From: Geothrix oryzae
Lineage (GTDB): Bacteria > Acidobacteriota > Holophagae > Holophagales > Holophagaceae
Assembly: GCF_030295385.1 (NCBI RefSeq)
Contig: NZ_AP027079.1
Coordinates: 2,108,001-2,172,000 of the forward strand
DNA: 64,000 nucleotides
Direction of reading: 5' to 3'
Each line of letters starts with the position of its first letter. Positions within the stretch are counted from its first letter, which is position 1. The translations under genes and the position numbers were made by a program. Positions 24,510 to 54,429 of the stretch are shown here, piece after piece. The notes under the pieces were generated by a model. The model saw only the letters and a program-made list of their open reading frames with translations, made no database searches and was not told the DNA's origin.

Positions 24510-24798
24510 AGAGGCTCCGATCTTCCAGCCTAGCGGGTTGGGCACGGGACTGTGACGGCCGGCACATGCCCACGCCTGCGGGCGGACCATCGGGCCACCT
24601 GTATCCATCGTTTTTCTCACAGGGCCCCAGCGCCCGGTGGAAGACCGCCGACTCTACGGTGTGCTAACACCATTCATTGTTTTCTTTATGCATTATTTGG
24701 AATGTCTTTATTTTTCTTGACGCTCCTTTCCCCGGGGCGTGGCATGGAGGCCCAACACCCTACCCAAAGTCGATTCCACCTCCTCAGAGGAACAATCG
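24510..24798. promoter_or_regulatory. AT-rich divergent control region (289 bp)
   Basis: The gap separates the phosphatase (minus) and the DUF2339 gene (plus). Bases 24658-24671 form the dyad GGTGT-gcta-ACACC. Bases 24672-24720 are strikingly AT-rich against the surrounding GC background and probably hold the promoter of the cytochrome operon. On the minus strand, TAGGCT lies about 17 bases before the phosphatase ATG. I could not fix -35/-10 boxes for the plus strand. Confidence 0.5.
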
Positions 24799-28057: not shown

Positions 28058-28061
28058 GGCC

Positions 28062-37381: not shown

Positions 37382-37675
37382 ATGTACGCCATGATCATCG
37401 TCCGCTACCGCCGCCCCCTGCCCGAGATCGAGGCCGTCACGGAAGCGCACCGCGCCTACCTCCGGACGCTGCAGGACCAGGGGATCCTGGTGGCTTCCGG
37501 CCCCCTGGATCCCCGGTTCGGCGGCATGTGGCTGGTGCGGGTCCAGGATGAGAACCCCCTTGCGGACCTGGACGCCCTCCGCGACGGTGATCCCTTCCAC
37601 CAGCACGGACTGGCCAACTATGAGCTGCTCCCCTGGAAGGTGATGCAGGGCAAGGAAGGGTTCGACCGGATCTAG
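37382..37675 (+). CDS. YCII-related domain protein
   Basis: A 97-residue dimeric alpha-beta barrel protein of the YCII group. It has MYAMIIVRYRRPLPEIEAVTEAHRAYL with the conserved His, ILVASGPLDPRFGG with the Asp, and the end GLANYELLPWKVMQG. Enzymatic roles in the family vary and none can be assigned. It starts 16 bases after arcC and is probably co-transcribed. Its stop interlocks (CTAG) with the stop of the giant kinase gene. Confidence 0.85.
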   Translation: MYAMIIVRYRRPLPEIEAVTEAHRAYLRTLQDQGILVASGPLDPRFGGMWLVRVQDENPLADLDALRDGDPFHQHGLANYELLPWKVMQGKEGFDRI

Positions 37676-40600
37676 GCCTCCACTGGGCGGATGCCGAGGT
37701 CGGCGATCTTCTTCTGGATCTCCTTCATGCTGAAGGGCTTCCGCAAGCTGGCCACGCCGGGGTTCTCCTCCAGCAGCGGCGCGATCTCCTGATCGCTGTA
37801 GCCCGTGGCCATGAGCACCGGCAGGCCGGGCCGGAGATCCCGGATCCGGGGCAGGGTTTCCGGGCCGCTCAGGCCCGGCATGTTCATGTCGAGGATCACC
37901 AGGTCCACCGGGAGGCCGCCCTGCAGGAGCCGGAGCGCCTCCTGGCCCTCGGGCGCGGTGGTCACGGCATGGCCCAGCATCTCCAGCATGGGCGCCACCG
38001 ATTCCCGGATCAGCTCGTCGTCGTCCACCAGCAGCACCTTCAGCGGGGCCTGCTCGGGCTTCGGCAGGTCCTTGGCGGCCGACGGGGGCGGAGCCGGCCG
38101 CTCCACCCGGTGGGCGGGGAAGCGGAGGGTGGCTTCGGTGCCCGCCCCCGGCTCGCTGGCCAGGTCCAGAGCGCCGTCATGGGCCTTCATGGTGCCGTAG
38201 ACCATCGCCAGCCCCAGGCCAGTGCCCTTCCCTTGCGGCTTGGTAGTGAAGAAGGGCTCCATGGCCCGGGCCAGCACCTCCGGGCTCATGCCCTGGCCCG
38301 TGTCCTTCACGCGCAGCTCCAGGCCGCCATCGGCGGTCTCCCGCGTCGAGATGTGGAGGACGCCGCCGCCGGGCATGGCGTCCATGGCATTCACGCAGAG
38401 GTTCATGAGCGCATGACTCAGCGCCCCGTTATCGCCCCGCACCAGCCCGAGCCCATCCCGGAGGTCCATCCGGAGCTGGACGCGCTTGAGCATGGTGTAG
38501 CTCAGGAGGTGGCTCATCTCGGTGACCAGGGCATTGAGGTCGATGAGCTGCTCCTCCTGGAGGTCCTTGTGGGCGAAGTAGAGGAGGCTCTTGACCACGC
38601 CGCGCCCGCGGAGGCAGGCGCTCATGATCGTGTCGAGGTTCTTCGCCGAGGAGGAGAAGGGATCCGCCGCTTCCCGCAGCGTGGAGGCCAAGCCCAGGAT
38701 GGCCCCCAGCACATTGTTCATGTCGTGGGCCACGCCGCCGGCCAGGCTCCCGAGGCTCTCGAGCTTCTGCGACTGATGGAGCTGGGCTTCCAGGGCGCGG
38801 CGCTCCTCCTCGTCGCGCTTCCGCTGGGTGATGTCTTCCTTGATGGCGATGTAGCTGGTGAGGATGCCCGCCTCGTCCCGGACCGGGGCGATGGTGGCCC
38901 GTTCGTAGTACGGCTCGCCCCCCTTCTTGAGGTTCTCGAACTCGCCCACCCACACCTCGCCGCGCGCCAGGGTCTCCCACATCTGCTGGTAGTGCTCGGG
39001 CGGCGTGACGAGGGATTTCAGGATGCGGGGATTCTGCCCGAGGGCCTCCGCGGCCGAGTAGCCGGTGATCGCCGTGAAGGCGGGATTGATGTACTCGATG
39101 GTCCCCTGGGGGTCGGTGATCACGATGGACAGCGGATTCTGCTCCACCGCCACGGAGATCTTGCGCAGCTTGGCTTCCGATTCGCGCCGCCGATCCTCGC
39201 CCGCCAGGTGATCCAGGGCGAAGGAGACATCGCCGGCCGCCTCCTCCAGGAGCGCCACTTCATGGGCGCCGAAGAAGTCCTTCTCCGAGGAATAGACCAT
39301 CAGCGCCGCACAGACCTCCCCCCCCAGCCGGATGGGGAAGGCCGCCGAGGCCGCGTAGCCGCACCGGACGGCCGCCGCATGCCAGGGGGCCGAGGTAGAG
39401 GTGCCCAGGAAGTCGTTCACGACGCAGGGGCGCCCTTCGCGGATGGCCGTGCCGGTGGCCCCGCGGCCCAGGGGCGTGTCGTCGCTGCGGATCTGCAGGC
39501 CGTCGAGGTAGCCGTGGGCGTCTCCGTACTGGTTGAGCACCCGCACCTCGTGGGTCGAGGGGTCGTCCCAGCCGATCCAGGCCATGCTGAACTGCCCGAA
39601 CGCCACCATCACTTCGCAGATCTTGGCGAGCAGCGTCTCGCGGGTGGGGGACCAGACAATCGCCTGGTTCACCTGGCTCAGGGCGGCGTAGAGCTGGGTC
39701 AGCCGCTCCAGCTGGCGGGCCTGGGCCCGGGCTTCGGTGATGTCCTGGATGACGCCCCGCAGGGCCACCGGCTGCCCCGCCTCGTTCCAGAGGAGCTCCC
39801 CCGCCCCGTGAACCCAGCGCGGCTCACCGTCCGAGATGCGGACGATGGGGTAGTCGAGATCGAAGGGCGCATGCCGTTCGATGATCCCGGCCACATAGGC
39901 GTGCATCTGCTCCTGGAAGGCGGGAGCCACGATGCGCGTCCAGCCCGTGAGGTCCCGCGGATAGCTGGCGTCGATGCCGAAGATCCGATCGAGGTGGGGG
40001 CTGCTCTTCCAGTGATCCGTCTGGATGTCCCAGGTGTAGGTTCCGACGCCCCCGGCCTCCTGCGCTTCCCGCAGGAACCGCTCGCTCTCCAGGAGGGCGG
40101 CCTCCGCCTCGCGGCGGCGCGCCTCGCCCGCCAGGTGATCCATGGCGAAGGAGATGTCCATCGCCGCTTCCACCAGCAGCGCCTCCTCCTGAGGACCGAA
40201 GAAATCCTTCTCCCGGGCGTAGACGGCCAGGGCGCCCACCACCTCCCCATCCTGCCGGATGGGGAAGGCAGCCACAGCGGCGAACCCCGATTCGGTCGCG
40301 GCCTCGCGCCAGGGTTCAGTCCCGGGCGCGCCCAGAAAGTCGTTCAGGACGCAGGGGCGGGCTTCCCGGATCGCCGTCCCCACCGGGCCTCCGGCCAGGA
40401 CCGAGTCCCCGCTCTCCACACGGATGCGGCCCAGATAGCCCTTCGCATCGCCGGACTGCGCGGCGACCGTCACGCCGTGGGTGACGGATTCATTCCAGCC
40501 GATCCAGGCCATGCTGAATTGGCCGAATTCGATGAGCACTTCGCATATCTTGTCGAGCAGGGCCGCCTTGGTGGGCGACCAGACGATGGCCTGATTGACC

Positions 40601-42666
40601 TGACTCAGTGCGGCGTAGAGGCGGGTCATCCGCTGGAGCTCGCGCTCCCGGGCGACGCGCTCCGTGATGTCGCGCAGGAAGCTGATCACGCCGGGGGCGC
40701 CATCGAAGGGGACCGCCCGGGCGCTCACCTCCACCGGGAAGGTCGAGCCGTCCCGACGGCAGTGGACGGTTTCGAACCGGATGGATCCGTGGGTCTGCAG
40801 CCGTTCCAGCTGGCCGGCCGTCTCAGATCGCGATGTCACCGGCCGGAGATCTGAGACCTTCATCGTCCTCAGTTCGGCGACCGGACGGCCGTAGCTCTCG
40901 GCGGCCTGGAGGTTCGCCTCGAGAATGCGGCCCTCGCCATCCAGCAGCAGGATGATGTCGTTGGCTTCCTGCATGAGCCACTCGAACCGCTGGGAGAGCG
41001 CGAGCTGTGCGTGGATCATGTCCGCATCGTGGTGCCTCACCATCAGGCCCAGGGTCGCGGCGGCCAGGGCCAGCAGCCCGATCAGCGCGGCTCCGGTGAT
41101 CCACACGCGCTGCCGCAGCGGGCCGTAGACCTCAGCCTCGTCCACCTTGGCCACCATGTGCCAGGCCGTTCCCGGAATCCTGTGCAGGGCCGCGAGGACC
41201 GGCACGCCCCGGTAGTCGCGGCCGGCCACCACCCCCTCCTCGCCCAAGGCAGCCCGGACCGCGGGCATGTCGGGCGCCGTCGCCAGGGGCAGCCGCAGGG
41301 TCATGGGAGCGTACCCCCCGTGCCGGAGTTCGTTCAGGAACAGGACCTCCTCCCCTTCTCTCCGGACCAGAAGCGTCTCCGCGCTGGCGCTGGGCGTGGG
41401 CCAGGACTGCACCAGCGGATACAGGAACTGCTTCGGGTCTAGCAGGAGGAGGAGGACGCCCTCGGGCTTCGCGCCGGGCCGGACTCCGATGGGGACCCAC
41501 AGGCTCAGGTGGAGATCCGGATGATCGGCATCCCGATGCAGATCCGTCACCGTGATCCCGGGCACCCGCAGCACGGCCTCCAGCTCCGCCGCATCCAGGG
41601 CGTCCAGGCTGGAGGAGGGGTCCTCCGGCACCGAGATCTTGATCCGGCCCTGGCCGTCCGCCAGGATCAGGCGCTGGTAGGTGTTCCGCTGCAGCCCCTC
41701 CATCCAGGCCCGGATGTCGCGCTCGGAGGCCTGGGGAGAACCCGCCAGGAACCGCCGCAGCTGACCCTGGACGAGGGGACCCTCGAACAGCTGCTCGGCA
41801 TCGAGGCGGCGCTCCCCGGACCAGGCTTCGATCTGACGGACCTTGAGTTCCGCGATGGCCGCCAGCTCCCCGAGCACCCGCGCCCGGGTCGTCTTGAGCT
41901 GGCCGCGCAGGTAGAACGAACCGGCCGTGAGGATCAGCACGCCCAGCAGCAGGAAGAGCACCAGGGGTCCCATCAGGTACCACCGGTCCACGGGGCCACG
42001 CCCCTTCTTCGGCATGAGGCCGAAAGCCGCCAGGGGCCAGACATCGCCCCCGGCCGTCAGCGTCAGGGCCGTGCCGAGGCCCACGGCGCAAAGCGCCGAC
42101 GGCAGGGACATCGGAATGGTGCCGGTCCCGTACAGCACCGGCGCCCCCGCCACATAGCTGACCAGGACCACCGTGCCCATCATGACGGGGATCAGGGCCA
42201 GGACGGCGGCACCCTGCCGGTGGCGCCACGCAGGGTCGGGAAACGGCCACCGGAACAAGGCCGACAGGGCAGCGCAGAGGGTTGCCAGGGCGGTCAGGAG
42301 CGAAGTGCGCTGAACCTGCGGTTGCCCCAGGAACAGCCAGTTCTCCAAGAGCGAGGGGCGGTTCAGGAGGTGGCCGATCACCACCCCCAGGCTCAGGAGG
42401 GCCACGCCCAGCGCCACGCCGATCGAGAGGCGCCGAAGGCTCCGGGCGCGGCTCCAGCCCTCGGTGGTGAAGACGGCCAGGCTCAGCAGGACCACCAGTC
42501 CCATGCCCAACGGCGACATGGGCACCTGACCCGATCCCAGGGCCGCAAGCCACGGCCGCCCCAGCAGGGTGCCCAGCGCCGCCAGAAACGCCACGCCCCC
42601 CGCCGCGGCCGATAGGAGCAGCGTCAGCCTCCGGACAGCTTTTTGAAGGAACCTCTCCTGAGGCAT
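37672..42666 (-). CDS. Giant hybrid sensor histidine kinase (TM sensor, PAS-GAF-PAS-GAF-PAS, HisKA, HATPase, REC)
   Basis: A 1664-residue membrane kinase. About seven N-terminal helices (residues 10-260) precede a periplasmic sensor loop (about 275-515) and a further helix (518-539). The cytoplasmic part is PAS (545-670), GAF (686-850), PAS (870-985), a second GAF (993-1155) and PAS (1180-1290). The H box is GGVAHDMNNVLG (H1314), then an ATPase domain with DTGQGMSPEV and GKGTGLGLAMVYG. A C-terminal receiver has phospho-Asp in VILDMNMPG (D1593). The two GAF units are near copies. GGTGAG lies 8 bases before the ATG at 42666. No separate output gene is adjacent; it is divergent from the chemotaxis operon. 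Confidence 0.92.
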   Translation of the reverse strand: MPQERFLQKAVRRLTLLLSAAAGGVAFLAALGTLLGRPWLAALGSGQVPMSPLGMGLVVLLSLAVFTTEGWSRARSLRRLSIGVALGVALLSLGVVIGHLLNRPSLLENWLFLGQPQVQRTSLLTALATLCAALSALFRWPFPDPAWRHRQGAAVLALIPVMMGTVVLVSYVAGAPVLYGTGTIPMSLPSALCAVGLGTALTLTAGGDVWPLAAFGLMPKKGRGPVDRWYLMGPLVLFLLLGVLILTAGSFYLRGQLKTTRARVLGELAAIAELKVRQIEAWSGERRLDAEQLFEGPLVQGQLRRFLAGSPQASERDIRAWMEGLQRNTYQRLILADGQGRIKISVPEDPSSSLDALDAAELEAVLRVPGITVTDLHRDADHPDLHLSLWVPIGVRPGAKPEGVLLLLLDPKQFLYPLVQSWPTPSASAETLLVRREGEEVLFLNELRHGGYAPMTLRLPLATAPDMPAVRAALGEEGVVAGRDYRGVPVLAALHRIPGTAWHMVAKVDEAEVYGPLRQRVWITGAALIGLLALAAATLGLMVRHHDADMIHAQLALSQRFEWLMQEANDIILLLDGEGRILEANLQAAESYGRPVAELRTMKVSDLRPVTSRSETAGQLERLQTHGSIRFETVHCRRDGSTFPVEVSARAVPFDGAPGVISFLRDITERVARERELQRMTRLYAALSQVNQAIVWSPTKAALLDKICEVLIEFGQFSMAWIGWNESVTHGVTVAAQSGDAKGYLGRIRVESGDSVLAGGPVGTAIREARPCVLNDFLGAPGTEPWREAATESGFAAVAAFPIRQDGEVVGALAVYAREKDFFGPQEEALLVEAAMDISFAMDHLAGEARRREAEAALLESERFLREAQEAGGVGTYTWDIQTDHWKSSPHLDRIFGIDASYPRDLTGWTRIVAPAFQEQMHAYVAGIIERHAPFDLDYPIVRISDGEPRWVHGAGELLWNEAGQPVALRGVIQDITEARAQARQLERLTQLYAALSQVNQAIVWSPTRETLLAKICEVMVAFGQFSMAWIGWDDPSTHEVRVLNQYGDAHGYLDGLQIRSDDTPLGRGATGTAIREGRPCVVNDFLGTSTSAPWHAAAVRCGYAASAAFPIRLGGEVCAALMVYSSEKDFFGAHEVALLEEAAGDVSFALDHLAGEDRRRESEAKLRKISVAVEQNPLSIVITDPQGTIEYINPAFTAITGYSAAEALGQNPRILKSLVTPPEHYQQMWETLARGEVWVGEFENLKKGGEPYYERATIAPVRDEAGILTSYIAIKEDITQRKRDEEERRALEAQLHQSQKLESLGSLAGGVAHDMNNVLGAILGLASTLREAADPFSSSAKNLDTIMSACLRGRGVVKSLLYFAHKDLQEEQLIDLNALVTEMSHLLSYTMLKRVQLRMDLRDGLGLVRGDNGALSHALMNLCVNAMDAMPGGGVLHISTRETADGGLELRVKDTGQGMSPEVLARAMEPFFTTKPQGKGTGLGLAMVYGTMKAHDGALDLASEPGAGTEATLRFPAHRVERPAPPPSAAKDLPKPEQAPLKVLLVDDDELIRESVAPMLEMLGHAVTTAPEGQEALRLLQGGLPVDLVILDMNMPGLSGPETLPRIRDLRPGLPVLMATGYSDQEIAPLLEENPGVASLRKPFSMKEIQKKIADLGIRPVEA

Positions 42667-43022
42667 GGGGGACTCACCAAATCCAAAACAAGGGGCTGTC
42701 GCATCGGCAGCGGAAGCGCCAGACGGGGAGGTCCTGGTGTTCCGCGGTACATCCCTGATTTGACCGTGTCTTTCCGGCGGCATCGATCGGGTTGCCGGGG
42801 ACTGTGATAAAGATCACTCGAAGATCAGCAATTGTTATCCGTCAAGCAGTGATGCCGATGAAAGAAGTTCATCCATCACTCCGGATCCTCTGTGGACAGC
42901 CGAGGATGTCATGAAAAAGTAAGCATAAACATTATGCCTGGTCGATTTTGCCTCGATCTTTTTACCAATTAATGCACTCGGCTATCGCCCTTTTCCCTAC
43001 CGCACCACTCGGAGGAATCACC
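42667..43022. promoter_or_regulatory. 356-bp divergent control region of hybrid kinase and chemotaxis operon
   Basis: It holds no gene that I can support. It is less GC-rich than its surroundings, notably 42820-42970. It contains a CRP/FNR-like palindrome (42803-42818) and a perfect 6-3-6 palindrome GCATAA-aca-TTATGC (42923-42937). A reading frame from 42948 into the MCP exists, but its upstream codons lack a ribosome site and are not counted as coding. I found no convincing sigma-28 or sigma-54 promoter. Confidence 0.6.
42803..42818. promoter_or_regulatory. CRP/FNR-family binding site candidate
   Basis: TGTGA-taaaga-TCACT, matching the CRP half-sites TGTGA and TCACA with the standard 6-base spacer in 9 of 10 positions. 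It is 137 bases from the kinase start and 205 from the MCP start. Confidence 0.6.
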
Positions 43023-44753
43023 GTGCTCACCAACCTGAAGATCGGAACTCGCCTGAGCGTTGGCTTCGGAATTGTCCTGGCGCTCCTTCTGCTCATCGCA
43101 GGCGTCGGATTGAACCGGATGAGCCACATCGCGGACGACACCAACGAGATCGTCACTCGCTACAACAAGCAGGTGGCCTGGGCCAATGGCATGTCCGATC
43201 AGCTCTTCACGATCAGCCGCATCACCCGGACGATCCTCCTCATGGACAACATCCCGGACCGAAAAGCAGCCGTCGAGCGGATCGGCAAGGCCCGCGACAT
43301 TTTTAACGATCTCTCCAAGAAGCTCGAAGACTCCCTCGTCAGCCAGGAAGCGAAAGCGAATTTCGAGAACCTGCAGGTGCAACTTCAGAAAGTAAGAACG
43401 GCCAACAACCATGTCATAGAGGCCAGTCTCGCGGGCCGAGACAAAGAAGCCACCCGGCTGATGTTCGATGAGGCCCGCCCGGCGGATCAGTCCCTGCAGG
43501 ATGCGGTTCTCAAGACTGTCAAATTTTTCGATGGTGCCGTCATCTCACGCCACGAGCAGGCCAAGGACAGCTACAAACAGGCCATGATCATCGTAGTCAC
43601 CTGCTCGGTGTTGGCCTTGATCGCCGGCTCCTTGATGTCCTTCTTCATCACCCGCAGCATCACCCATCCGCTGCGGGAAGTGGGCGCGGTCATGGAGACC
43701 GTGGCCCAGGGTGACCTGACCCAGCGGCTTGAGCTCCACTCGAAGGACGAACTGGGCGAGCTGGGACGCATCATCAACAACACCAATGAGGGATTGCGGG
43801 AGATGGTGCTGCAGATCCAGGAGAGCGCGCTGGCCATCTCCACGGCTTCGGGTGAGATCTCCATGGGCAACACGGACCTGAGCCGCCGCACCGAGGAACA
43901 GGCCGCCAGCCTCGAAGAGACCGCCAGCAGCATGGAGCAGATCACCAGCAATGTGAACCAGACCGCCGACAACGCGCGGTCCGCCAACCAGGAATCCGGC
44001 AAGGCCCGCCAGGTGGCCCAGGACGGCGGCACCGCCGTCGGCCAGGTCATCGAGGCCATGGAGGCCATCAACCAGAGCTCCGCGAAGATCAACGAGATCA
44101 TCGGCGTGGTGGACGAGATCGCCTTCCAGACCAACCTGCTGGCGCTCAACGCCGCGGTGGAGGCCGCCCGGGCCGGCGAGCAGGGCCGAGGCTTCGCGGT
44201 GGTGGCGGCGGAAGTCCGCAACCTCGCCAAGCGCAGCGCCGACGCCGCCAAGGAGATCAAGGTCCTCATCCGCGAAAGCGTCGCCAAGTCCCAGGACGGC
44301 ACCAAGGTCGCCGCCCACGCCGGAGACACCATCCAGGAGGTGGTGGCCAATGTGCAGCGCGTGACCTCGCTCGTGGGCGAGATCGCCGGCGCCACCCAGG
44401 AGCAGAGCACGGGCCTGAACGAGATCAACAAGGCCGTGGTCCAGATGGACGAAGTCACGCAGCAGAACGCCGCCCTGGTGGAGGAATCCGCGGCCGCCGC
44501 CGAGTCCCTGGATGCCCAGGCCCACGCCCTGACGGAGATCGTGGCCCGGTTCAAGACCGGCGTGGAAGTCCGCCGCACGGAGGCCGCCCGCGTCCGCCCC
44601 AATGGCGCCCCGCACCCCCAGGCGCTCCGCCCGGCCGCCAAGCCCACCCGTGCCGCCGTGAAGCGCGGGAGCGCCCGCCCCGAACTCGCCGCCGCCAAAC
44701 AGCCCGTGCCCACGCCCCGGAGCGATGACGACGGGCAGTGGGAAGCCTTTTGA
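43023..44753 (+). CDS. Transmembrane methyl-accepting chemotaxis protein
   Basis: A 576-residue chemoreceptor of the Tar/Tsr class. It has a first helix [19 protein letters not shown], a four-helix-bundle periplasmic domain (about 35-180), a second helix [20 protein letters not shown] and a HAMP domain (about 210-265). The signalling hairpin tip contains [15 protein letters not shown]. The last residues GQWEAF form an xWxxF pentapeptide like the NWETF tether for CheR and CheB. The GTG at 43023 has GGAGGA at 43011-43016. It opens the chemotaxis operon. Confidence 0.95.
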
Positions 44754-44764
44754 GGAGCCCCGCC

Positions 44765-45265
44765 ATGGCCGCCGCTGACAGCAGTTTCCAGGCGCTCCAG
44801 CAGGTGCTCTGTTTCGCCCTCGCCGGCGAGGCCTACGCCCTGCCCATCCTGAAGGTCCGGGAAATCCAGGCCCAGGCCACCATCACCCGGATCCCCAAGG
44901 CGCCGTCGTACATGCCCGGCGTGATCAACCTGCGGGGAGCCATCGTGCCGATCCTCGAGCTGCGGCAGCGGTTCGCCCTGGGAGAGGCGCCCGAGGACAC
45001 CCGCCCCGTCATCATCATCGTCGAGGTCCAGGGCCGCACCCTGGGCATCCGCGTGGACTCCGTCTCCGATGTGCTCGACCTCGACGCCTCGGCCATCCGG
45101 CCGGCACCCGAGCTCGGCACCCAGACCGCGCTGGGCCGCGAGTTCATCGCCGGCCTGGCCTCCCTGCCCGGCGCCACAGGCTCGGATTCCATGCTGATCC
45201 TCCTCGACCTGGACCGCCTGCTCTCGGACGGCGAACTGCTCGCCCTCGAAGCGGCCACGGCCTGA
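44765..45265 (+). CDS. cheW: Chemotaxis adaptor CheW
   Basis: A 166-residue scaffold protein linking receptors to CheA. It has the CheW fold with VLCFALAGEAYALPILKVREI, PSYMPGVINLRGAIVPILEL and GIRVDSVSDVL. GAGG lies upstream of the ATG at 44765, which is 11 bases after the MCP stop. Second gene of the chemotaxis operon. Confidence 0.95.
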   Translation: MAAADSSFQALQQVLCFALAGEAYALPILKVREIQAQATITRIPKAPSYMPGVINLRGAIVPILELRQRFALGEAPEDTRPVIIIVEVQGRTLGIRVDSVSDVLDLDASAIRPAPELGTQTALGREFIAGLASLPGATGSDSMLILLDLDRLLSDGELLALEAATA

Positions 45266-45270
45266 TCGCC

Positions 45271-45588
45271 ATGACCCGGAAGCCTTCGCCGCCCGGTCCG
45301 CCGACGCCCCAGATCGCCCTGGCCCTCCAGGGCGATCTGGACATTTTCGCCATCCACTCGCAGTGGGAGCAGATCGCGGCGCAGGCGGCCGCCAGCGGGC
45401 TGCCGGCGGTCCTGGACCTCTCGGGTGTCGGGGACCTGGATCTGTCGGGCCTGCAGCTGCTGGCCGCCCTGGATCGCGACCTGCGGGCCAAGGGCGGGCG
45501 CCTGGCGTTGACCGGCCTCAAAGATGAGTGGAAAGGCCGATTCAGTCACCTCGGCCTGGCCGACCTGCTCCTGGAAGTCCCCTCATGA
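45271..45588 (+). CDS. STAS-domain protein
   Basis: A 105-residue single-domain STAS (anti-sigma-factor antagonist-like) protein with QIALALQGDLDIFAIHSQWEQ and VLDLSGVGDLDLSGLQLL. The usual DSSG phosphorylation site reads DLSG, so the first Ser is lost but the second remains. Within a chemotaxis operon it may bind a receptor or act in localisation; the partner is unknown. It starts 5 bases after cheW and overlaps the next gene by ATGA. Confidence 0.85.
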   Translation: MTRKPSPPGPPTPQIALALQGDLDIFAIHSQWEQIAAQAAASGLPAVLDLSGVGDLDLSGLQLLAALDRDLRAKGGRLALTGLKDEWKGRFSHLGLADLLLEVPS

Positions 45589-46673
45589 AGAAGTGGTTCC
45601 TTCCTTCCGCGCCCGCAGCCGGGGCCACGACGATGGAGCTTCCGGCTCCGGCAGGCGTCCCGATGGGCGTCCCGGAAACAGTCCTTGGGCCGCTGCTGGG
45701 GCAGCTGGCGTCGCGGGAAGCCGCCATGCTCGAGGGTCAGGTGAATTTCCTGACGCCCGAACTCCACCAGGTGGACAGCCTGGTCCGGGAGGCGGCGGCC
45801 ACCCTGGAGGCCGCGCTCAAGACCCTGGACCAGAGCGTCCAGCATCAGCATCGTCTGGCGGAGGATGTCCAGGTGGCCATGCGGATCACGCTGGGAGGAG
45901 GCCAGGCCACCGAGGGCCTGGATGCCGTGGGGGCCTCGATCATGGGGACCCTGGATGGGTTCGTGTCGAACATGCTCGAGATCTCCAAGTCCTCCATGCA
46001 GCTGGTGGGGGAGATCGAGGACATCCGAACCCGCTCCGACCGCATGGAAGGCATGCTGGGAGAACTGTCCGAGATCGCGGGCCGCACCCACCTGCTGTCC
46101 CTGAACGCCAGCATCGAGGCGGCCCACGCCCGCCAGTTCGGCGCGGGCTTCGCCGTGGTGGCCGGCGAGGTCTCCAAGCTGGCGGACCGGAGCACGGCCC
46201 TGAGCGCCACCATCCAGGACCAGATCAGCGGCACCCGCCAGGCCCTGGAGCGCACGGACGCCTATGTCCAGGCCATCGCCAGCAAGGACATGAATATGGC
46301 GATCCAGTCCAAGGGTGAATCCGAGGTGCTGGTGCATGCCCTCGAGGCCAGCAACGCCCGCGTGAAGGACCTGGTGACCCAGCTCGAGGCCAACGCCCTC
46401 ACCATCGCCCAGCAGGTGGGCCATGTGGTGCGCAGCCTCCAGTTCGAGGATCTGGTCCACCAGACCCTCACGGCCTGCCTGCAGGAACTGGGCAACCTGA
46501 TGGAACAGGCCCACGCCTGGCGGGTGGCCGAATCCAAGCTGGCGGCCGGGGAGGCTGCCACCGAGGTGCTCTCCGAGCTGCATGCCACCCTGGGCGAAGT
46601 CGAGGACGCCCGCGTTCAATTCAAGGCCGTGAAGCGGGGCGACCTGGCTGCGGGCGAAGTAGACCTGTTCTAG
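45585..46673 (+). CDS. Soluble MCP-like protein with CheZ-like D-x3-Q motif
   Basis: A 362-residue protein without membrane helices. A short receptor signalling hairpin (about 125-215) has HLLSLNASIEAAHARQFGAG and FAVVAGEVSKLADRS. Further helices contain VVRSLQFEDLVHQTL, where D289 and Q293 have the same spacing as the catalytic Asp/Gln of CheZ (DLTGQ). The C-terminus is AAGEVDLF, an acidic-hydrophobic tail resembling a CheY-binding peptide. It is usually annotated simply as a methyl-accepting protein. The ATG at 45585 overlaps the STAS stop. A phosphatase role is inference; see findings. Confidence 0.8.
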   Translation: MKKWFLPSAPAAGATTMELPAPAGVPMGVPETVLGPLLGQLASREAAMLEGQVNFLTPELHQVDSLVREAAATLEAALKTLDQSVQHQHRLAEDVQVAMRITLGGGQATEGLDAVGASIMGTLDGFVSNMLEISKSSMQLVGEIEDIRTRSDRMEGMLGELSEIAGRTHLLSLNASIEAAHARQFGAGFAVVAGEVSKLADRSTALSATIQDQISGTRQALERTDAYVQAIASKDMNMAIQSKGESEVLVHALEASNARVKDLVTQLEANALTIAQQVGHVVRSLQFEDLVHQTLTACLQELGNLMEQAHAWRVAESKLAAGEAATEVLSELHATLGEVEDARVQFKAVKRGDLAAGEVDLF

Positions 46674-46688
46674 AAAAGGAACCGAGCC

Positions 46689-47051
46689 ATGCCCGGATGC
46701 ATTCTGACCGTCGATGACTCCAGCACCATGCGCCAGATGATCAGCTTCACCCTGAGGGGGGCCCAGTTCGAGGTCCTCGAGGCGGGGGACGGCGTGGAGG
46801 CCCTGGAAGTGGCCCAGGGGAAGAAGCTGTCCCTGGTCATCACCGATGTGAACATGCCGCGCATGGACGGCATCACGCTGGTGCAGCGGATGCGCGCCCT
46901 GCCGGAGTTCAGGTTCACGCCCATCCTGGTGCTCACCACCGAATCTGGCCCGGACATGAAGCAGAAGGGTAAAGAGGCGGGAGCCACGGGCTGGATCGTG
47001 AAGCCCTTCAGCCCCGAGAAACTCCTCGATGTCGTCAACAAGGTCATCTGA
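46689..47051 (+). CDS. cheY: Chemotaxis response regulator CheY
   Basis: A 120-residue single receiver domain. It has the acidic pair in LTVDDSSTMRQM, phospho-Asp in LVITDVNMPRMDG, Thr in VLTTES and Lys in IVKPFSPEKL. It is 15 bases after the soluble MCP-like gene and 8 bases before cheA. Phosphorylated by CheA, it should bind the flagellar switch; no flagellar gene is in the window. Confidence 0.95.
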   Translation: MPGCILTVDDSSTMRQMISFTLRGAQFEVLEAGDGVEALEVAQGKKLSLVITDVNMPRMDGITLVQRMRALPEFRFTPILVLTTESGPDMKQKGKEAGATGWIVKPFSPEKLLDVVNKVI

Positions 47052-47059
47052 GGTCCCCC

Positions 47060-49150
47060 ATGTCCGATCCGATGGCTCAATTCCGCACGGCCTTCTTTGA
47101 GGAGGCGACCGAACTGGCGGACGGCATGGAAGCCACCCTGCTGTCCCTGGACCTGGAGACCGTGGAGACGGAGGACCTGCACACGCTGTTCCGGGCGGCG
47201 CATTCCATCAAGGGCAACGCGGGCACCTTCGGGTTTCCCGCCGTGGCCGCCTTCACGCACCAGCTGGAGAACACCCTGGAGCCCGTGCGTCAGGGCTCCC
47301 GGGCCATGACCGCCGAGCTGCGCGAGCTGCTACTGCAGGGCGTGGACCTCATCCGCAGCCACCTGCACCACGCCCGACTGGAGGAGGCCCTTCCGGCCAA
47401 GGACCAGTTGGCCCAGGAGGCCCTGGTCGCCAAGCTCCAGGCCGGCCCTGCCCTGCCCGCCGCGCCGGCGCCCGCGACACCCCTGGCATCCAGGAGCGGC
47501 ACCGGCTACGCCATCCGCTTCGAGGCCCCGGTGGATTCGTTCCGCCGCGGTGTGAACCTGGAGCGGCTGTTCCGGGATCTGGGCAAGCTCGGCACCCTGC
47601 GCGCCTGGCTGGACACGGCGCGGCTTCCGGCCTTCGACCAGCTGGAACCCGAGGACTGCCACCTGGCCTGGGACCTGCGTCTCGAGTCGGCCTGCCCGCA
47701 GGCGAGCGTGGAGGAGGTCTTCGAATTCGTGGCGGAAGGCGAGAACCTGCACATCCAGCCCCTGCCACCCGAGCATGTCGTGCCGCCCCTGGGCGAGATC
47801 CTCCAGGTGGAAGCCGGCGTCAGCCCCAAGGACATCCGCGACGCCCTCTCCCAGCAGAAGCACCTGGGCGAGCTGCTGGTGGAGGCGGGCAAGGTGAAGC
47901 CCGAGGCCGTCAGCAAGGCCCTGGACCAGCAGCAGAAGAAGCGGAGCCAGGCCGAGGCCTCCACGGTGCGGGTGGCCACGGACAAGATCGACCGCCTGGT
48001 GAACCTGGTGGGCGAGCTGGTCATCACCCAGGCCATGCTGGCCCAGGCCTCGCAGCTGGCCCACACGCCCGCGGGCGAGGAGCGGATGAGCGCGGCCCTG
48101 CTGCAGCTGGACCGCCAGACCCGCGAGCTGCAGGAGCGGGTCATGGGCATCCGCATGGTCCCCGTGGACATGGTGTTCTCGCGCTTCCCGCGCATGGTCC
48201 ACGAGCTGGGCAAGCAGCTTGGGAAGGAGGTCGAGCTCGTCATGGAGGGCCAGGCCACGGAACTGGACAAGACCTTCATTGAGATGCTGGTGGATCCCCT
48301 CACGCACCTGGTGCGCAACGCCGTGGATCACGGCATGGAGGAGAAGGAGGCCCGCCACGCCTCCGGCAAGCCCGCCGTGGGCACCATCGCCCTGCGCGCC
48401 GCCAGCCGAGGCGGACACATCCACATCGAGGTCAAGGACGATGGCCGAGGGCTGGATCGGGACCGCATCTTCGCGAAAGCCGTGGAGCGCGGCCTCCTGC
48501 CTGCGGGCAACCGGCCCCCGGACGAGGAGCTGAACCTCCTGATCTTCGAGCCGGGCTTCTCCACCGTGGAGCAGGTCTCGGATCTCTCCGGCCGCGGGGT
48601 GGGCATGGATGTGGTGCGCCAGAATGTGCGCGCCCTGGGGGGCCGCATCGAGGTCGAAAGCCAGGTCGGCCGGGGCACCACCATCCGCCTGGTCCTGCCC
48701 CTCACCCTGGCCATCCTGGACGGGCTCACGGTGCGGGTGGGCGAGGAGACCTTCGTCTTCCCCCTGGCCTCGGTGCTGGAGAGCTTCCAGCGGCAGGCCT
48801 CGGACATCCAGACCGTAAAGGGCGATCGCGAGGTGATCAGCCTGCGGGGCGAGTTCATCCCCGTGGTGCGCCTCCAGCGCCTGATGGAGGGCGGCGCTGC
48901 GGACGGCGCCATCGGCCGCACGCTGCTGGTGCTGGTGGAATCCGAGGGCCGGCGGGCCGCCATGGCGGTGGATGAGCTGCTGGGTCAGCAGCAGGTGGTC
49001 ATCAAGAGCCTGGAGACCCACTACCGCCGCGTGGAGGGCATCTCGGGCGCCACCATCCTCGGGGACGGCCGCGTGGCCCTGATCCTCGATGTGCCGGGGC
49101 TCCTGCGCATGGAGGCCAGCGCGGCGGTCCCAACCACGGTCGAGGCATGA
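47060..49150 (+). CDS. cheA: Chemotaxis histidine kinase CheA
   Basis: A 696-residue kinase. The HPt domain has phospho-His in LFRAAHSIKGNAGTFGF (H48). A second domain (about 150-245) starts with GYAIRFEAPVDSFRRG. The dimerisation helices begin near VRVATDKIDRLVNLVGELV. The ATPase domain has LTHLVRNAVDHGME (N box), VKDDGRGLDRD and GRGVGMDVVRQN, followed by the CheW-like C-terminal domain (about 555-690). The linker has a run with DIRDALSQQKHLGELLVEAG. The stop overlaps cheR (ATGA). Confidence 0.97.
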   Translation: MSDPMAQFRTAFFEEATELADGMEATLLSLDLETVETEDLHTLFRAAHSIKGNAGTFGFPAVAAFTHQLENTLEPVRQGSRAMTAELRELLLQGVDLIRSHLHHARLEEALPAKDQLAQEALVAKLQAGPALPAAPAPATPLASRSGTGYAIRFEAPVDSFRRGVNLERLFRDLGKLGTLRAWLDTARLPAFDQLEPEDCHLAWDLRLESACPQASVEEVFEFVAEGENLHIQPLPPEHVVPPLGEILQVEAGVSPKDIRDALSQQKHLGELLVEAGKVKPEAVSKALDQQQKKRSQAEASTVRVATDKIDRLVNLVGELVITQAMLAQASQLAHTPAGEERMSAALLQLDRQTRELQERVMGIRMVPVDMVFSRFPRMVHELGKQLGKEVELVMEGQATELDKTFIEMLVDPLTHLVRNAVDHGMEEKEARHASGKPAVGTIALRAASRGGHIHIEVKDDGRGLDRDRIFAKAVERGLLPAGNRPPDEELNLLIFEPGFSTVEQVSDLSGRGVGMDVVRQNVRALGGRIEVESQVGRGTTIRLVLPLTLAILDGLTVRVGEETFVFPLASVLESFQRQASDIQTVKGDREVISLRGEFIPVVRLQRLMEGGAADGAIGRTLLVLVESEGRRAAMAVDELLGQQQVVIKSLETHYRRVEGISGATILGDGRVALILDVPGLLRMEASAAVPTTVEA

Positions 49151-50061
49151 AGCGGTCCACCGCGGACCTCGCGCCCCGGGGCCCAGTGTCTCGGGGCCCG
49201 GTATCCCGGGGTCCGGCGCTCCGGGAGGTCGCCGGTCCCGACCGCGTGCCGCTGTCCCAGGAGACCTTCCAGGCCCTGCGGAACCTCCTGCACGACCATT
49301 CGGGCATCGCCCTGGCCCCCCACAAGCTCACGATGGTCCAATCCCGCCTGGCCAAGCGGCTGCGCGTCCTGGGCCTGCCCGACTACGAGGCCTACCTGGA
49401 GAAGGTCGGCGAGACCGACTCCAGCGAGTGGGCCGAGTTCATCAACGCCCTCACGACGAACCTCACGAGCTTCTTCCGGGAAGGGCACCATTTCACGCGG
49501 CTGGTGGAGCTGCTGACGGCCTCGGGCGCCGCCACGGGCAAGCTCCGCGTCTGGAGCGCCGGCTGCTCCACCGGCGAGGAGCCCTACACCCTGGCCATGA
49601 CCCTGCTGAAGGCCTTCGGCCCCTCGGCCCGCATCCAGATCGTAGCCACGGATCTGGACACCGCCGTGCTGGAGACCGCCGCCCGCGGCATCTACCCCAT
49701 GGCCCGCATCGAGGGGCTGTCCGACGAGTGGAAGCGCTTCGCCTTCCTGCGCGGCACGGGCGAGCGCCGCGGCCAGGCGCGCGTGCGGCCCGAAGTCCGG
49801 GACCTGGTCTCGTTCCAGCAGATGAACCTGCGCGATGCCGCCTGGCCCCTGGAAGGAGGGCCCTTCCAGGCCATCTTCTGCCGCAATGTGATGATCTACT
49901 TCGACAAGCCCACCCAGCGGGAGCTGCTGGGCCGGTTCCGGCAGACCCTGGCCCCGGGAGGTCTCCTGTTCGTCGGCCATTCCGAGGCCCTGCTGGATGC
50001 GGCCCTGGGCTTCCAGTCCCTGGGCCAGACCATCTACCGGCGGAAGGAGGGCACGCCGTGA
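49147..50061 (+). CDS. cheR: Chemotaxis protein methyltransferase CheR
   Basis: A 304-residue SAM-dependent enzyme that methylates receptor glutamates. It has an N-terminal helical domain (about 35-100), NLTSFFREGHHF, the SAM-binding WSAGCSTGEEPYTLAM, and FCRNVMIYFD. The first 30 residues contain a short Gly/Pro/Arg repeat (RGPVSRGPVSRGPALR). Coupled to cheA and cheD by ATGA and GTGA overlaps. The MCP pentapeptide QWEAF would tether it. Confidence 0.95.
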   Translation: MKRSTADLAPRGPVSRGPVSRGPALREVAGPDRVPLSQETFQALRNLLHDHSGIALAPHKLTMVQSRLAKRLRVLGLPDYEAYLEKVGETDSSEWAEFINALTTNLTSFFREGHHFTRLVELLTASGAATGKLRVWSAGCSTGEEPYTLAMTLLKAFGPSARIQIVATDLDTAVLETAARGIYPMARIEGLSDEWKRFAFLRGTGERRGQARVRPEVRDLVSFQQMNLRDAAWPLEGGPFQAIFCRNVMIYFDKPTQRELLGRFRQTLAPGGLLFVGHSEALLDAALGFQSLGQTIYRRKEGTP

Positions 50062-50669
50062 GCCCGCCCCCCGTCCCCCTGGTGCTCGGCCGGGCCTCGA
50101 AGTATCTGGACCGGCACTTCAACCGCCAGGCCATGAAGATCCTCCCCGGCGAGTTCTACGCCACGACCGAGGACGAGGTGATCGTCACCGTTCTGGGCAG
50201 CTGCGTGGCCGCGTGCCTCCTGGATCCCATCGCCATGGTGGGGGGCATGAACCACTTCATGCTCCCCGTGAAGCAGGGGGAACGCGATCCCGATGTGTTC
50301 TACGCGGCCCGCTACGGCGCCGCCGCCATGGAGTACCTCATCAACAACCTGCTGCACCTCGGTGCCCAGCGGGACCGCCTGGTGGCCAAGGCCTTCGGCG
50401 GCGGCAAGGTCATGCGGGGGCTCACCGATGTCGGCGCGCAGAACATCGACTTCGTCCGGGGCTTCCTCCGAGCGGAGAACATCCCCCTCTGGAACGAGGA
50501 CATGGGGGGCTCCTGCCCCCGCAAGGTCTACTTCTTCCCCCATACGGGGCAGGTCCTCGTCAAGCGCATCGAACACACCCACAACGACACCGTCCTCGAC
50601 CGCGAACGCTCCTACTTCCAGGAAGTCAGCCAAGTGCCCCTCGAGGGCGATGTGGAACTCTTCTCGTGA
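50058..50669 (+). CDS. cheD: Chemoreceptor glutamine deamidase CheD
   Basis: A 203-residue deamidase of receptor glutamines. The catalytic Cys is in VLGSCVAACLLDP and the His in GGMNHFMLP; AKAFGGGKVM and NIDFVRGFLRAENIP complete the fold. The C-terminus is GDVELFS, nearly the same tail as the soluble MCP-like protein (GEVDLF). In other bacteria CheD works with the CheC phosphatase, which is not encoded here. The GTG start overlaps cheR and its stop overlaps cheB (GTGA). Confidence 0.93.
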   Translation: MSPPPVPLVLGRASKYLDRHFNRQAMKILPGEFYATTEDEVIVTVLGSCVAACLLDPIAMVGGMNHFMLPVKQGERDPDVFYAARYGAAAMEYLINNLLHLGAQRDRLVAKAFGGGKVMRGLTDVGAQNIDFVRGFLRAENIPLWNEDMGGSCPRKVYFFPHTGQVLVKRIEHTHNDTVLDRERSYFQEVSQVPLEGDVELFS

Positions 50670-51739
50670 CCGCGGACGCGAAGCGGCGCGTGCTCGTCGT
50701 GGATGACAGCGCCCTGGTCCGCCAGGTGCTCAGCGCCATCCTCGCCCGCCATCCCCTGCTCGAAGTCGTGGGCACGGCCCGGGATCCCTACGATGCCCGG
50801 GAGAAGATCAAGCAGCTCTCGCCGGATGTCCTGACGCTGGATGTCGAGATGCCCCGCATGGACGGCCTCACCTTCCTGGGCAAGCTCATGCGGGCCCACC
50901 CGCTGCCGGTGGTGATGCTCTCCAGCCTCACGGACAAGGGCACCGCCACGGCCCTCGACGCGCTGGACCTCGGCGCCGTGGATGTGATCGGCAAGCCCGC
51001 CCTGGATCAGGCCGTGGGCCTGGAAGCCATGGGGGCCGAAATCGCCGAGACCGTGCACGCGGCCTCCTTCGCCCGGATCCATCGCGCCGCTCCCGCCCTA
51101 CCCTCCCCGGCCTTCTCGGCCCCCACGGCCGCCATGGCCCCCCTCGCCACCCGGGCCCGGGCGGGCCGCAGCCTCATCGCCGTCGGCTCCAGCACGGGCG
51201 GCACCGAGGCCCTCCGCCGGATTTTCGAAACCATCCCAGGGAACCTTCCGCCCATCGCCGTGGTTCAGCACATGCTCCCCGGCTTCACCCCGGCCTTCGC
51301 GGACCGCCTCGACCGGGCCAGCGCCGCCACGGTGAAGGTGGCCGAGGATGGGGAATCGCTCCAGAGTGGAACGGTCTACCTCGCCCCCAGCGACCAGCAC
51401 TTCACCGCGGTGCGCCGCGGCGCGGGCCTGGCCGTCCAGCTCCGGGAAGGCGAACGGGTCTCCCGCCACCTGCCCTCGGTGGATGTGCTCTTTGAGTCCG
51501 TGGCCGAAGCCTGCGGCCCCCACGCCTTGGGCATCATCCTCACGGGCATGGGCGAGGACGGCGCCAGGGGCCTCCTCCGCATGCGCCAGCGGGGCGCCCG
51601 CACCCTCGGCCAGGACGAGGCCACCTGCGTGGTCTACGGCATGCCCCGGGTCGCCTGGGCCCGCGGCGCGGTGATGGAACAATGCCCTCTACCCCTGGTG
51701 CCCCACCTCATCGCAGAGTGGTGCGAACGCCAACCCTGA
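50666..51739 (+). CDS. cheB: Chemotaxis protein-glutamate methylesterase CheB
   Basis: A 357-residue two-domain esterase. The receiver (about 5-125) has VLVVDDSALVRQVL and the phospho-Asp in TLDVEMPRMDG. The catalytic domain (about 170-355) has AVGSSTGGTEAL (Ser), VVQHMLPGFT (His) and TGMGEDGARGL (Asp). It starts with a GTG that overlaps the cheD stop. It removes methyl groups from receptors, opposing CheR, giving the operon a full adaptation set. Confidence 0.96.
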   Translation: MTADAKRRVLVVDDSALVRQVLSAILARHPLLEVVGTARDPYDAREKIKQLSPDVLTLDVEMPRMDGLTFLGKLMRAHPLPVVMLSSLTDKGTATALDALDLGAVDVIGKPALDQAVGLEAMGAEIAETVHAASFARIHRAAPALPSPAFSAPTAAMAPLATRARAGRSLIAVGSSTGGTEALRRIFETIPGNLPPIAVVQHMLPGFTPAFADRLDRASAATVKVAEDGESLQSGTVYLAPSDQHFTAVRRGAGLAVQLREGERVSRHLPSVDVLFESVAEACGPHALGIILTGMGEDGARGLLRMRQRGARTLGQDEATCVVYGMPRVAWARGAVMEQCPLPLVPHLIAEWCERQP

Positions 51740-51795
51740 CCGCCCTCCCCCGACCTTCAGCGGCCGCCCGGCCCTGACTTCCCCCGATCCCCGCC

Positions 51796-54429
51796 ATGTT
51801 CAAAGTGCCCACCTCCCTGATCCGGCCGAGCATGCCCAGGACCTTCCTGTTCCTGCTCGGCATCTGGTCGGTGATCGTGGGCTGCATCCTGGGGGTGGTC
51901 CTGTATTTCTCCACTCGGGAGGAGCGGGAGATCGCCCTCAACCGGGCCATGGACAGCTACCACAAGGATCTGGCCTACCGCCGCTGGGCTTCGGAGCGGG
52001 GCGGGGTCTATGTACCGCTCAACGGGAAGACGCCCCCCAATCCGCATCTGTCCCACCGGCCGGACCGGGACATCACCACCTCCCAGGGGAAGGCCCTCAC
52101 CCTGGTGAACCCCGCCTACATGACGCGGATGGTGCACGAACTCGGAGCCGATGCCTACGGGTTGCAGGGCCACATCACCAGCCTGCATCCCATCCGGCCC
52201 GAAAACGCGCCGGATGCCTGGGAGCGGCGGGCCCTCGAGTCCTTCGAGCGCGGTGCCCGGAACTACTCCGAGGTGCTGAGGGAGAACGGGCGTCCGGTGC
52301 TGCGCTACATGGGCGCCTTCCTCGTCGATTCGAGCTGCCTGGCCTGCCACGCCCAGCAGGGCTACAAGGTGGGCGATGTCCGGGGCGGCATCAGCGTCAC
52401 CGTGCCGGTCGGATCGGGCCCTTCGGCCCTCGGTCTGTCCCACAAGGCCATCTCCCTGCTGGCCGTGGCCTCGTTCTGGCTCATGGGCGCAGGCGCCATC
52501 TTCGTTTGGGTGCGGCGGATCGTGCGGTCGGCGCAGGTGCAGCAGCGGATGGTCGAGGAGCTGAAGGAGCGGTCCCAGCGCTTCGAGGCGATCCGGGCCA
52601 CCACGCCGGACAGCCTGTGGTTCCTGGATCGGGAGGGGCTCATCCAATGGGTGAACGAGACCTACTGCCGCCTGTCCGGGTACGACCGGGAGGAGCTCCT
52701 GGGGCAGCCCATCTCCCTGGTCGAGGCCCAGGAAACCCCCGATGAGGTCGCCCACCACTTCGCCGACATCCAGCAGGGCCGGGATGTGGAGCACCGCTTC
52801 CGGACCCAGCACCGCGCCAAGGACGGCCGCATCCTCGACCTGGAAGTCACCACCTCCCTCTTGAGTTCCAAGGGTGAGGTCGTCTCCTTCCTCCGCGACA
52901 TCACCCAGGAGGTCCAAGCCAGCCGGCAGATCCGCGAGAGCGAGGCCCGCTTCCGGCAGCTCTTCGAGTCCTCGCCCGCCCCCATGTTCATCCACCGGGA
53001 AGGCCGCATCCTCCACGCGAACCTGGCGATGGCAAGGCTCCTGGAGGCCGAGGATCCCGGCGGCATCCTGAACCGCGAAGTCATGCCCTTCATCCATCCG
53101 GACTTCCAGGCCGTGGTGGGGGAACGGGCCCGCGCCCTGCACGAATCGAACCTGCCCGCCCAGCCCATGGCCATGACCCTCCTCACCCTCAAGGGCCGCG
53201 AGGTCTGGGTGGAGGCCCAGTCGGTGTCGCTGGACCTTCCCGGCGGCTTGGCCGGGCTGGTTTTCGCCCAGGATCTCACCGAGCGGCGGCGCGCGGAGGA
53301 CGAGCGGCTGAAGCTGGAAACCGAGATCCAGCACGCCCAGAAGCTGGACAGCCTGGGCAGCCTGGCGGGTGGCATCGCCCACGACATGAACAATGTGCTG
53401 GCCGCCATCCTGGGGATGTCCTCCCTGCTGCAGGCCAAGGCCCAGGGCGACGACGCCCTGGCGCGCTCGCTCCAGACCATCGAGAAGGCCGCCGGCCGGG
53501 GCCGGGACCTGGTGAAGGGCCTCACGGACTTCGCGCGGAAGGGGCTGCAGGAGGCCCGGATCATGGATCTGAACGCCATGGTCCGCGAGGAACTCGACCT
53601 GCTCGTCCGCACGAGCCGGCAGCGGTTCATCTTCGATGTCCAGCTCGAAGACGACCTCCCGCCCATCATGGGCGAGCCGAGCACCCTGGGCAGCGCCTTC
53701 ATGAACCTCTGCGTGAACGCCTTCGACGCCATGCCCCGCGGCGGGACGCTCCAGGTCCGCACCCGGCGGCAGGGCGCCCAGGTCATCCTGGTGGTGGCCG
53801 ATACGGGCCAGGGCATTCCCGCGGAGGTCCTCCCCCGCGTCACCGAACCCTTCTTCACCACCAAGCCCACGGGCCGGGGGACCGGGCTGGGCCTCGCCAT
53901 GGTCTACGGCACCATGAAGGCCCACGGGGGCGCCCTGGACATCCAGAGCGAGGTGGGCAAGGGCACCCGCATCAGCCTCAGCTTCCCCGCCGCCGAAAAA
54001 GGCGCGGAGACTGCTGGGGCCAAGCCGGTCGCCTCCGCACCCCAGGCGGCCAGCCTCCGCATCCTCGTGGTGGATGACGATGCCCTGATCCGGAGCATCC
54101 TGCCGGCCATGCTCGAGCAGCTCGGCCACCAGGTGGAGACGGCCTCCAGCGGGCTGGAGGCCCTCCGCCGCCTGGACGCGGGCCTGCCGGCGGACCTCGT
54201 GATCCTCGACCACAACATGCCGGGCCTCAGCGGGGCCGAGACCCTCCCCCGCATCCTCCAGCTGCGTCCGGGCCTCCGGGTCCTCGTGACCACGGGGTTC
54301 CTGGACAACGAGCTGAAGCTGCTGCTCGCGGGCTTCCCCGCCGTCCTGGCCCTCCAGAAGCCCTTCACCCTCGCCGAACTCCGGCAGCTGCTGGAGGGCC
54401 TGACGGGCCAGGATGAAACGGGAAATTAG
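51796..54429 (+). CDS. Heme-sensing (DUF3365) hybrid histidine kinase
   Basis: An 877-residue membrane kinase. One helix (about 16-36) is followed by a periplasmic DUF3365 c-heme sensor with CLACH (C181, C184, H185) and GDVRGGISVTVPV, then a second helix (about 212-238). Two PAS domains (about 255-375 and 385-500), an H box GGIAHDMNNVL (H529), an ATPase with DTGQGIPAEV and GRGTGLGLAMVYG, and a receiver with D805 in VILDHNMPG follow. The kinase-receiver half resembles the giant kinase at 37.7 kb. It starts 56 bases after cheB in the same direction, so redox or ligand input to behaviour is plausible but unproven. Confidence 0.93.
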   Translation: MFKVPTSLIRPSMPRTFLFLLGIWSVIVGCILGVVLYFSTREEREIALNRAMDSYHKDLAYRRWASERGGVYVPLNGKTPPNPHLSHRPDRDITTSQGKALTLVNPAYMTRMVHELGADAYGLQGHITSLHPIRPENAPDAWERRALESFERGARNYSEVLRENGRPVLRYMGAFLVDSSCLACHAQQGYKVGDVRGGISVTVPVGSGPSALGLSHKAISLLAVASFWLMGAGAIFVWVRRIVRSAQVQQRMVEELKERSQRFEAIRATTPDSLWFLDREGLIQWVNETYCRLSGYDREELLGQPISLVEAQETPDEVAHHFADIQQGRDVEHRFRTQHRAKDGRILDLEVTTSLLSSKGEVVSFLRDITQEVQASRQIRESEARFRQLFESSPAPMFIHREGRILHANLAMARLLEAEDPGGILNREVMPFIHPDFQAVVGERARALHESNLPAQPMAMTLLTLKGREVWVEAQSVSLDLPGGLAGLVFAQDLTERRRAEDERLKLETEIQHAQKLDSLGSLAGGIAHDMNNVLAAILGMSSLLQAKAQGDDALARSLQTIEKAAGRGRDLVKGLTDFARKGLQEARIMDLNAMVREELDLLVRTSRQRFIFDVQLEDDLPPIMGEPSTLGSAFMNLCVNAFDAMPRGGTLQVRTRRQGAQVILVVADTGQGIPAEVLPRVTEPFFTTKPTGRGTGLGLAMVYGTMKAHGGALDIQSEVGKGTRISLSFPAAEKGAETAGAKPVASAPQAASLRILVVDDDALIRSILPAMLEQLGHQVETASSGLEALRRLDAGLPADLVILDHNMPGLSGAETLPRILQLRPGLRVLVTTGFLDNELKLLLAGFPAVLALQKPFTLAELRQLLEGLTGQDETGN

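Follow-up and report, generated by a model that had tools for sequence, protein, structure and literature searches.

A predicted heme-c Cache hybrid histidine kinase at the end of a chemotaxis operon in Geothrix oryzae and its relatives

The gene at 51796-54429 of the window, the whole stretch of 64,000 nucleotides of Geothrix oryzae DNA that was analysed, encodes a hybrid histidine kinase that is an ordinary member of a recently described kind of sensor, sCache_heme, with a linkage to the che genes that is conserved in its lineage. Our main reading, to which we assign a probability of roughly 0.6, is that of an inner-membrane sCache_heme hybrid kinase that carries a covalent heme, senses NO or redox state and is probably expressed from the che transcript.

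The kinase gene and its sensor domain

The reading frame has 877 open codons, with a GC content by codon position (0.70/0.44/0.92) like that of its neighbours. Its features are the following.

51796..54429, plus strand: hybrid sensor histidine kinase (P0001), 877 aa; intact ORF, Pfam
51847..51903, plus strand: first transmembrane helix, residues 18-36; hydropathy peak 2.72, helix 13-68 in the model
51922..52422, plus strand: periplasmic heme-Cache (DUF3365/Tll0287-like) sensor, residues 43-209; Pfam PF11845 and VIA-align to 5b82
52336..52350, plus strand: CLACH heme-c attachment motif, residues 181-185; C181, C184 and H185 invariant in 75 aligned sensors
52450..52506, plus strand: second transmembrane helix, residues 219-237; hydropathy peak 2.12
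52579..52902, plus strand: first PAS domain, residues 262-369; unmatched in more distant orthologs
52945..53112, plus strand: second PAS domain core (PAS_8), residues 384-439; Pfam
53356..53994, plus strand: kinase core, HisKA (521-582, HDMNN at 529) and HATPase_c (628-733); Pfam, motifs
54061..54393, plus strand: C-terminal receiver (Response_reg), residues 756-866, with DDD, LDHNMPG and QKP motifs; Pfam, motifs

The protein thus runs from a transmembrane helix through a periplasmic sensor with one CLACH motif to a second transmembrane helix, two PAS domains, HisKA, HATPase and the receiver. A DUF3365-like sensor with a periplasmic CLACH site, followed by two PAS domains, a kinase and a receiver, had been proposed from the sequence, and this architecture was recovered with Pfam: PF11845 matches residues 94-204 with 73.5 bits against a cut-off of 24.1, the output domains also exceed their cut-offs, and CLACH is predicted to be periplasmic because residues 181-185 lie between two hydrophobic stretches. 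The catalytic boxes are present in the kinase (HDMNN at 529, NAFDAM at 641, DTGQGI at 669 and GTGLGL at 695) and so is LDHNMPG at 804 in the receiver, which gives the protein the phospho-His in HisKA, the ATPase boxes and the acceptor Asp of a hybrid histidine kinase. No HAMP domain was matched between the sensor and the PAS-PAS-HK-REC output. In the search of the genus loci, G002 and L033 were the only ones besides the window to match the first PAS domain. Among the best 25 of the 136 NCBIfam families that match the kinase, only a general sensory_box domain exceeds its cut-off and none is an equivalog. The closest named match to the sensor is from Geothrix sp. BP11 (96%), and the next ones are from other Holophagaceae.

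An AlphaFold2 model of residues 1-260, built from 75 sequences, has a mean pLDDT of 92.3. Compared by VIA-align over residues 43-209, it matches Tll0287 (5b82) with Z 15.7 and rmsd 3.3 over 135 aligned residues, the next row scoring 10.2, and 5b82 is also the top match in Foldseek (E 1.6e-6). Matching by sequence to 5b82 within the PDB is weak (E 0.058 with the single sequence and 4e-4 with a profile). Foldseek also lists 3b42 and 3b47 with probability 1.00 and E 0.004-0.006; both are absent among the best 50 VIA-align rows.

In the 75-row sensor alignment, which was drawn from 80 loci with L040, L042, L043, L044, L061 and L102 omitted and into which loci without CxxCH in the examined piece were not entered, C181, C184, H185, Y72, L85, T102 and G197 are invariant; the protein of L042 is truncated and has no CxxCH motif. 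Family, fold and motif together make heme-c binding by this sensor a well-supported prediction, in line with the heme-binding sensor that the sequence-only reading had proposed. The only cysteines of the kinase are at positions 30, 181, 184, 291 and 639, so that, CxxCH apart, the periplasm-facing portion offers no Cys to act as the second axial ligand, and no Cys falls in columns 41-178 in 65 of the 75 rows, this protein among them. If the helix is ungapped, the Cys ligand of Tll0287, which we take to be residue 46, would fall at about residue 63 here. Potential axial ligands include Met109 and Met172, conserved in 64 and 67 of the 75 rows, and Lys57, found in 62; His68 could serve in most relatives (55/75), the position being Arg in this protein. 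At Met52, Met is found in just 5 rows and Arg in 45. When the 68 sensors from outside the genus were aligned (L042, L043 and L061 omitted), no Met or Cys was found in the first periplasmic helix among columns at least 60% conserved.

Place of the gene in the operon, the genus and beyond

The kinase gene lies downstream of a run of che genes, with an OsmC-like gene and mla genes on the opposite strand beyond it.

37672..42783, minus strand: divergent hybrid kinase, 1703 aa (GAF, PAS, HK, REC; dCache below cut-off), on the far side of the che operon
42948..44753, plus strand: methyl-accepting chemotaxis protein, first gene of the che operon
44738..45265, plus strand: cheW
45271..45588, plus strand: STAS-domain protein
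45528..46673, plus strand: soluble MCP-like protein, start uncertain
46689..47051, plus strand: cheY
47060..49150, plus strand: cheA
49147..50061, plus strand: cheR
50100..50669, plus strand: cheD, start approximate
50666..51739, plus strand: cheB, GTG start about 50666, inferred from homologs and the position of the receiver
51740..51795, plus strand: gap of 56 bases between cheB and the kinase gene

The start of cheB is placed at about 50666, not at the ORF start of 49997, because cheD occupies that stretch in another frame. The spacing of 56 bases from cheB on the same strand, as first noted, is exact. That the gene closes the che operon is indicated by this close same-strand spacing, which is conserved in all 15 genus loci where both genes are visible (gaps of 24-56 bases); this count covers named and unnamed records, takes as kinase start the start codon nearest the aligned start, and excludes G024 and G034, whose contigs begin inside the kinase gene. 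Neither a terminator-like nor a promoter-like site was found in the 56-base gap, and since 0.5 sites are expected by chance in shuffles of the region, the promoter scan says little. No Hpt or response regulator was found by Pfam next to the kinase in the window apart from the che proteins. Inside the operon, the ORF of the STAS gene overlaps that of the soluble MCP, and the genus loci long enough to include this position have a STAS match there. Of the kinase-receiver cores in this genome, that of the divergent 1703-aa kinase comes closest to the core of the heme-Cache kinase (54%, the next being 50%). A local duplication of the two kinases that flank the che genes was considered and rejected: a tree of 36 cores places a different group of genus kinases as sister of the heme-Cache kinase clade (98/97 support), which leaves a simple local duplication unsupported. 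A plasmid origin was likewise set aside, with no megablast match among plasmids.

The kinase is present in at least 14 of the 37 genus genomes and a cheA ortholog (78% or more) in 22, this genome included in both counts and the cheA match of G033 being partial (residues 1-381). The kinase is not universal with the che operon: nine genomes have cheA with no kinase ortholog among the matches listed, an absence that in incomplete genomes may be an assembly gap. In seven of these nine the site after cheB is visible, although it can be followed for just about 340 bases in G027 and about 710 in G031, and it does not hold the kinase, which is therefore an optional addition to the operon. In G020, mlaD directly follows cheB. 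In G001, cheB is followed first by a STAS gene and next by a SpoIIE phosphatase that carries HATPase_c_2 (L166:11596-14385; dCache below cut-off), and in G019 the next long ORF after cheB is a SpoIIE-type membrane phosphatase with HATPase_c_2 (L168:4421-6754); such a phosphatase, together with the STAS gene of the operon, looks like a partner-switching module tied to chemotaxis. The site after cheB therefore looks variable in otherwise conserved che operons, being taken by the heme-Cache kinase, by a STAS/SpoIIE sensor phosphatase, or by neither. The kinase ortholog of G010 (L017) reads in two frames within the kinase core, through an assembly error or as a decaying gene, and was counted for position only.

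FlhA, which this genome also has, is present in all 13 kinase genomes of G001-G036 among the matches listed. Across G001-G036 it is found in 20 of the 21 genomes with a cheA ortholog versus 7 of the 15 without one (Fisher p 0.0015, uncorrected for descent), the single cheA genome without it being G027, which is 71% complete, and the 15 including G032, which carries the kinase and cheR-D-B at a contig end.

Outside the genus, 69 loci encode sensors with 36-55% identity to this one, and 25 of these proteins also match the HisKA, HATPase and receiver parts of this kinase. Three of the 69 loci lie near CheA or several che genes and three more near a che-gene pair; many loci end at contig ends and there is no background rate, so these counts imply no enrichment. 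The first three are L044 (Opitutaceae) and L066 (Desulfuromonadaceae), both beside several che genes, and L101 (Desulfobacca), where a CheA-like match follows at 6.4 kb. The three with a pair, none of which was counted as a che cluster, are L065 and L098, whose CheR and CheB matches (31-39%) lie some 5-8 kb downstream, and L090, with CheW and an MCP. In the Desulfobacca MAG, an Hpt-domain ORF (L101:3612-3956) comes directly after the related heme-Cache hybrid kinase gene, whose 3' end it overlaps, and is a possible next step of a phosphorelay.

Signal, output and alternative explanations

Several genes elsewhere in the genome, a single contig of 3.27 Mb, bear on heme, NO and motility. For heme-c attachment there are two candidate cytochrome c assembly (PF01578) proteins, one of them a fusion with ResB. 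NorB cytochrome c-like and COX1 domains occur together in two proteins (759 and 783 aa) that look like NO reductases; they are named from Pfam, no NCBIfam cut-off being reached, and a label "quinol-type" would have to be drawn from protein length and the lack of CxxCH. No qNor-like gene was found in the 80 related loci, many of them cut short, with these two proteins as tblastn queries (1e-10), and the neighbourhood thus gives no link to NO. The NrfA-family match in the genome carries one TAG; nrfHA is reported in G. fermentans in the available text of PMC5900883. The genome has two CheA-type dimerisation domains. A search for the Tll0287-like family returned two proteins here and none in 14 control genomes; besides the kinase there is a 510-aa MCP with one CxxCH (G000:C1:1919504-1919827; L172:4358-5890), a candidate for NO or redox taxis that would be better placed than the kinase for direct taxis. 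The tetraheme/NrfD module to which the sequence-only reading had tied the kinase is real (26544-29312, a tetraheme cytochrome with four CxxCH, a Fer4 protein and an NrfD membrane subunit in a row), but it is about 22 kb off and the tie found no support beyond the shared genome. The ORF before this module (24739-26544, 601 aa) matches nothing in Pfam at 0.01 or in NCBIfam at 0.001.

In the proposed mechanism, the kinase would be an inner-membrane protein, presumably a dimer, whose periplasmic Cache domain holds one covalent c-type heme via CLACH, one of its axial ligands being His185. With no Cys at hand for the second axial position, the heme is expected to be open to a small ligand, NO being the likeliest, or else to respond to whether its iron is Fe(II) or Fe(III). 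The change would shift a helix through the second transmembrane segment into the PAS linkers, which would set autophosphorylation at His529 and then phosphotransfer to the kinase's own receiver (Asp805), from which the phosphate would leave for some Hpt or regulator. As the last gene of the che operon, the kinase is probably expressed from the che transcript, so that the sensor would be present whenever that chemosensory system is.

The routing of a redox or gas signal to motility, as first suggested, divides into two parts. The signal part is upheld by published signalling-type members that respond to NO or redox, as described in the available text of PMC12889525 and PMC8396549; by analogy, redox or gas is a reasonable signal for the kinase, and sensing of one of the two, NO or redox, is likely. 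The motility part is conjectural, given the seven cheA relatives whose visible site after cheB lacks the kinase, the lack of an adjoining Hpt or response regulator apart from the che proteins, and the separate MCP. A role in swimming is plausible from gene position, and the fixed place in related species suggests such a link; the function may have nothing to do with motility.

Where the two signals are weighed against each other, a redox sensor working like the heme-c MCPs of Geobacter, in which a Met on the reduced heme would leave upon oxidation and set kinase activity while NO would be incidental, seems unlikely, though it deserves serious thought. In its favour, Geothrix reduces Fe(III). 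The conservation of Met109 and Met172 among the sensors would suit such a switch, as would the Met60-linked spin change of GSU0582 and GSU0935, whose potentials are -156 and -251 mV in the accessible part of PMC8396549. Against it, the first periplasmic helix has no conserved Met or Cys, and few rows share the Met at position 52; for this reason the kinase fits the NO reading somewhat better than a Met switch, and it also shares features with the signalling-type (cluster 2) sCache_heme proteins that bind NO, namely fusion to transmembrane helices and a signalling output and no axial Cys. That the motif is vestigial and the sensor binds some other ligand, like ordinary Cache domains, is very improbable: the general Cache fold and the matches of CitA, DcuS and WalK to the model in VIA-align would allow it, but CxxCH is invariant in the 75 aligned sensors, it is kept in 99% of the data sets of the preprint in its available text (PMC12889525), and Tll0287 is by far the best fold match.

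As to output, it is nearly an even bet that the kinase is merely carried by the che transcript and regulates non-motility genes through a distant Hpt and response regulator. The nine genus genomes with a cheA ortholog and no kinase ortholog among the matches listed, the seven vacant sites among them, the mlaD gene of G020 and the absence of an adjoining partner gene except the che genes all speak for this, whereas the kinase keeps its place in 15 of 15 loci, 12 of the 13 kinase genomes (G001-G036, among the matches listed) have a cheA ortholog, and the thirteenth, G032, has cheR-cheD-cheB beside the kinase at the contig end. A more direct connection, in which one Geothrix group would have added the kinase behind its che genes as an accessory input of a flagellar chemosensory system, with a receiver that swaps phosphate with CheY, CheB or the Hpt of CheA and so biases swimming by gas or redox without an MCP, appears improbable.

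Comparison with known systems

Among the matches listed, a literature search on DUF3365, Tll0287 and sCache_heme, Geothrix chemotaxis or NO reductase, and heme/NO chemotaxis kinases returned no title on this gene. A 2026 preprint renames DUF3365 sCache_heme and, in the text available, reports CxxCH in 99% of members, characterises as a redox protein one member that stands alone and has Cys/His ligation, and names no physiological role for the kinase-type members (PMC12889525). The HAMP-linked member without an axial Cys that it describes binds NO tightly and releases it slowly, forms no stable O2 complex and has a six-coordinate low-spin heme, perhaps with water; this evidence for NO comes from a single protein, which is not a kinase and belongs to another phylum (PMC12889525). 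With the signalling sCache_heme proteins of the available text the present kinase shares the domain, CxxCH, transmembrane helices, a cytoplasmic output and the lack of an axial Cys, but the tested member is HAMP-linked, whereas this kinase has a PAS-PAS-HK-REC output with no HAMP match and its gene closes a che operon.

Tll0287 of Thermosynechococcus has the same fold over residues 43-209 and the same CLACH letters, yet it is stand-alone with Cys/His ligation in the available part of PMC12889525, while the Geothrix protein is a membrane kinase without that Cys. GSU0582 and GSU0935 (3b47 and 3b42) have their periplasmic heme-c domain from one family with that of the Geothrix kinase; theirs is set in a motility sensor, an MCP, and not in a hybrid kinase, and their Met60, which makes them a redox/ligand type of switch in the accessible text of PMC8396549, finds no obvious conserved equivalent in the first helix here. 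The sCache_heme kinases of other phyla, such as those of L044 (Opitutaceae), L046 (Geomonas) and L079 (Geobacteraceae), have the same kind of sensor, but most of them show no che cluster nearby. The member fixed at the che end in a group of Geothrix relatives makes a testable case of whether a periplasmic heme-c kinase tunes motility to NO or redox.
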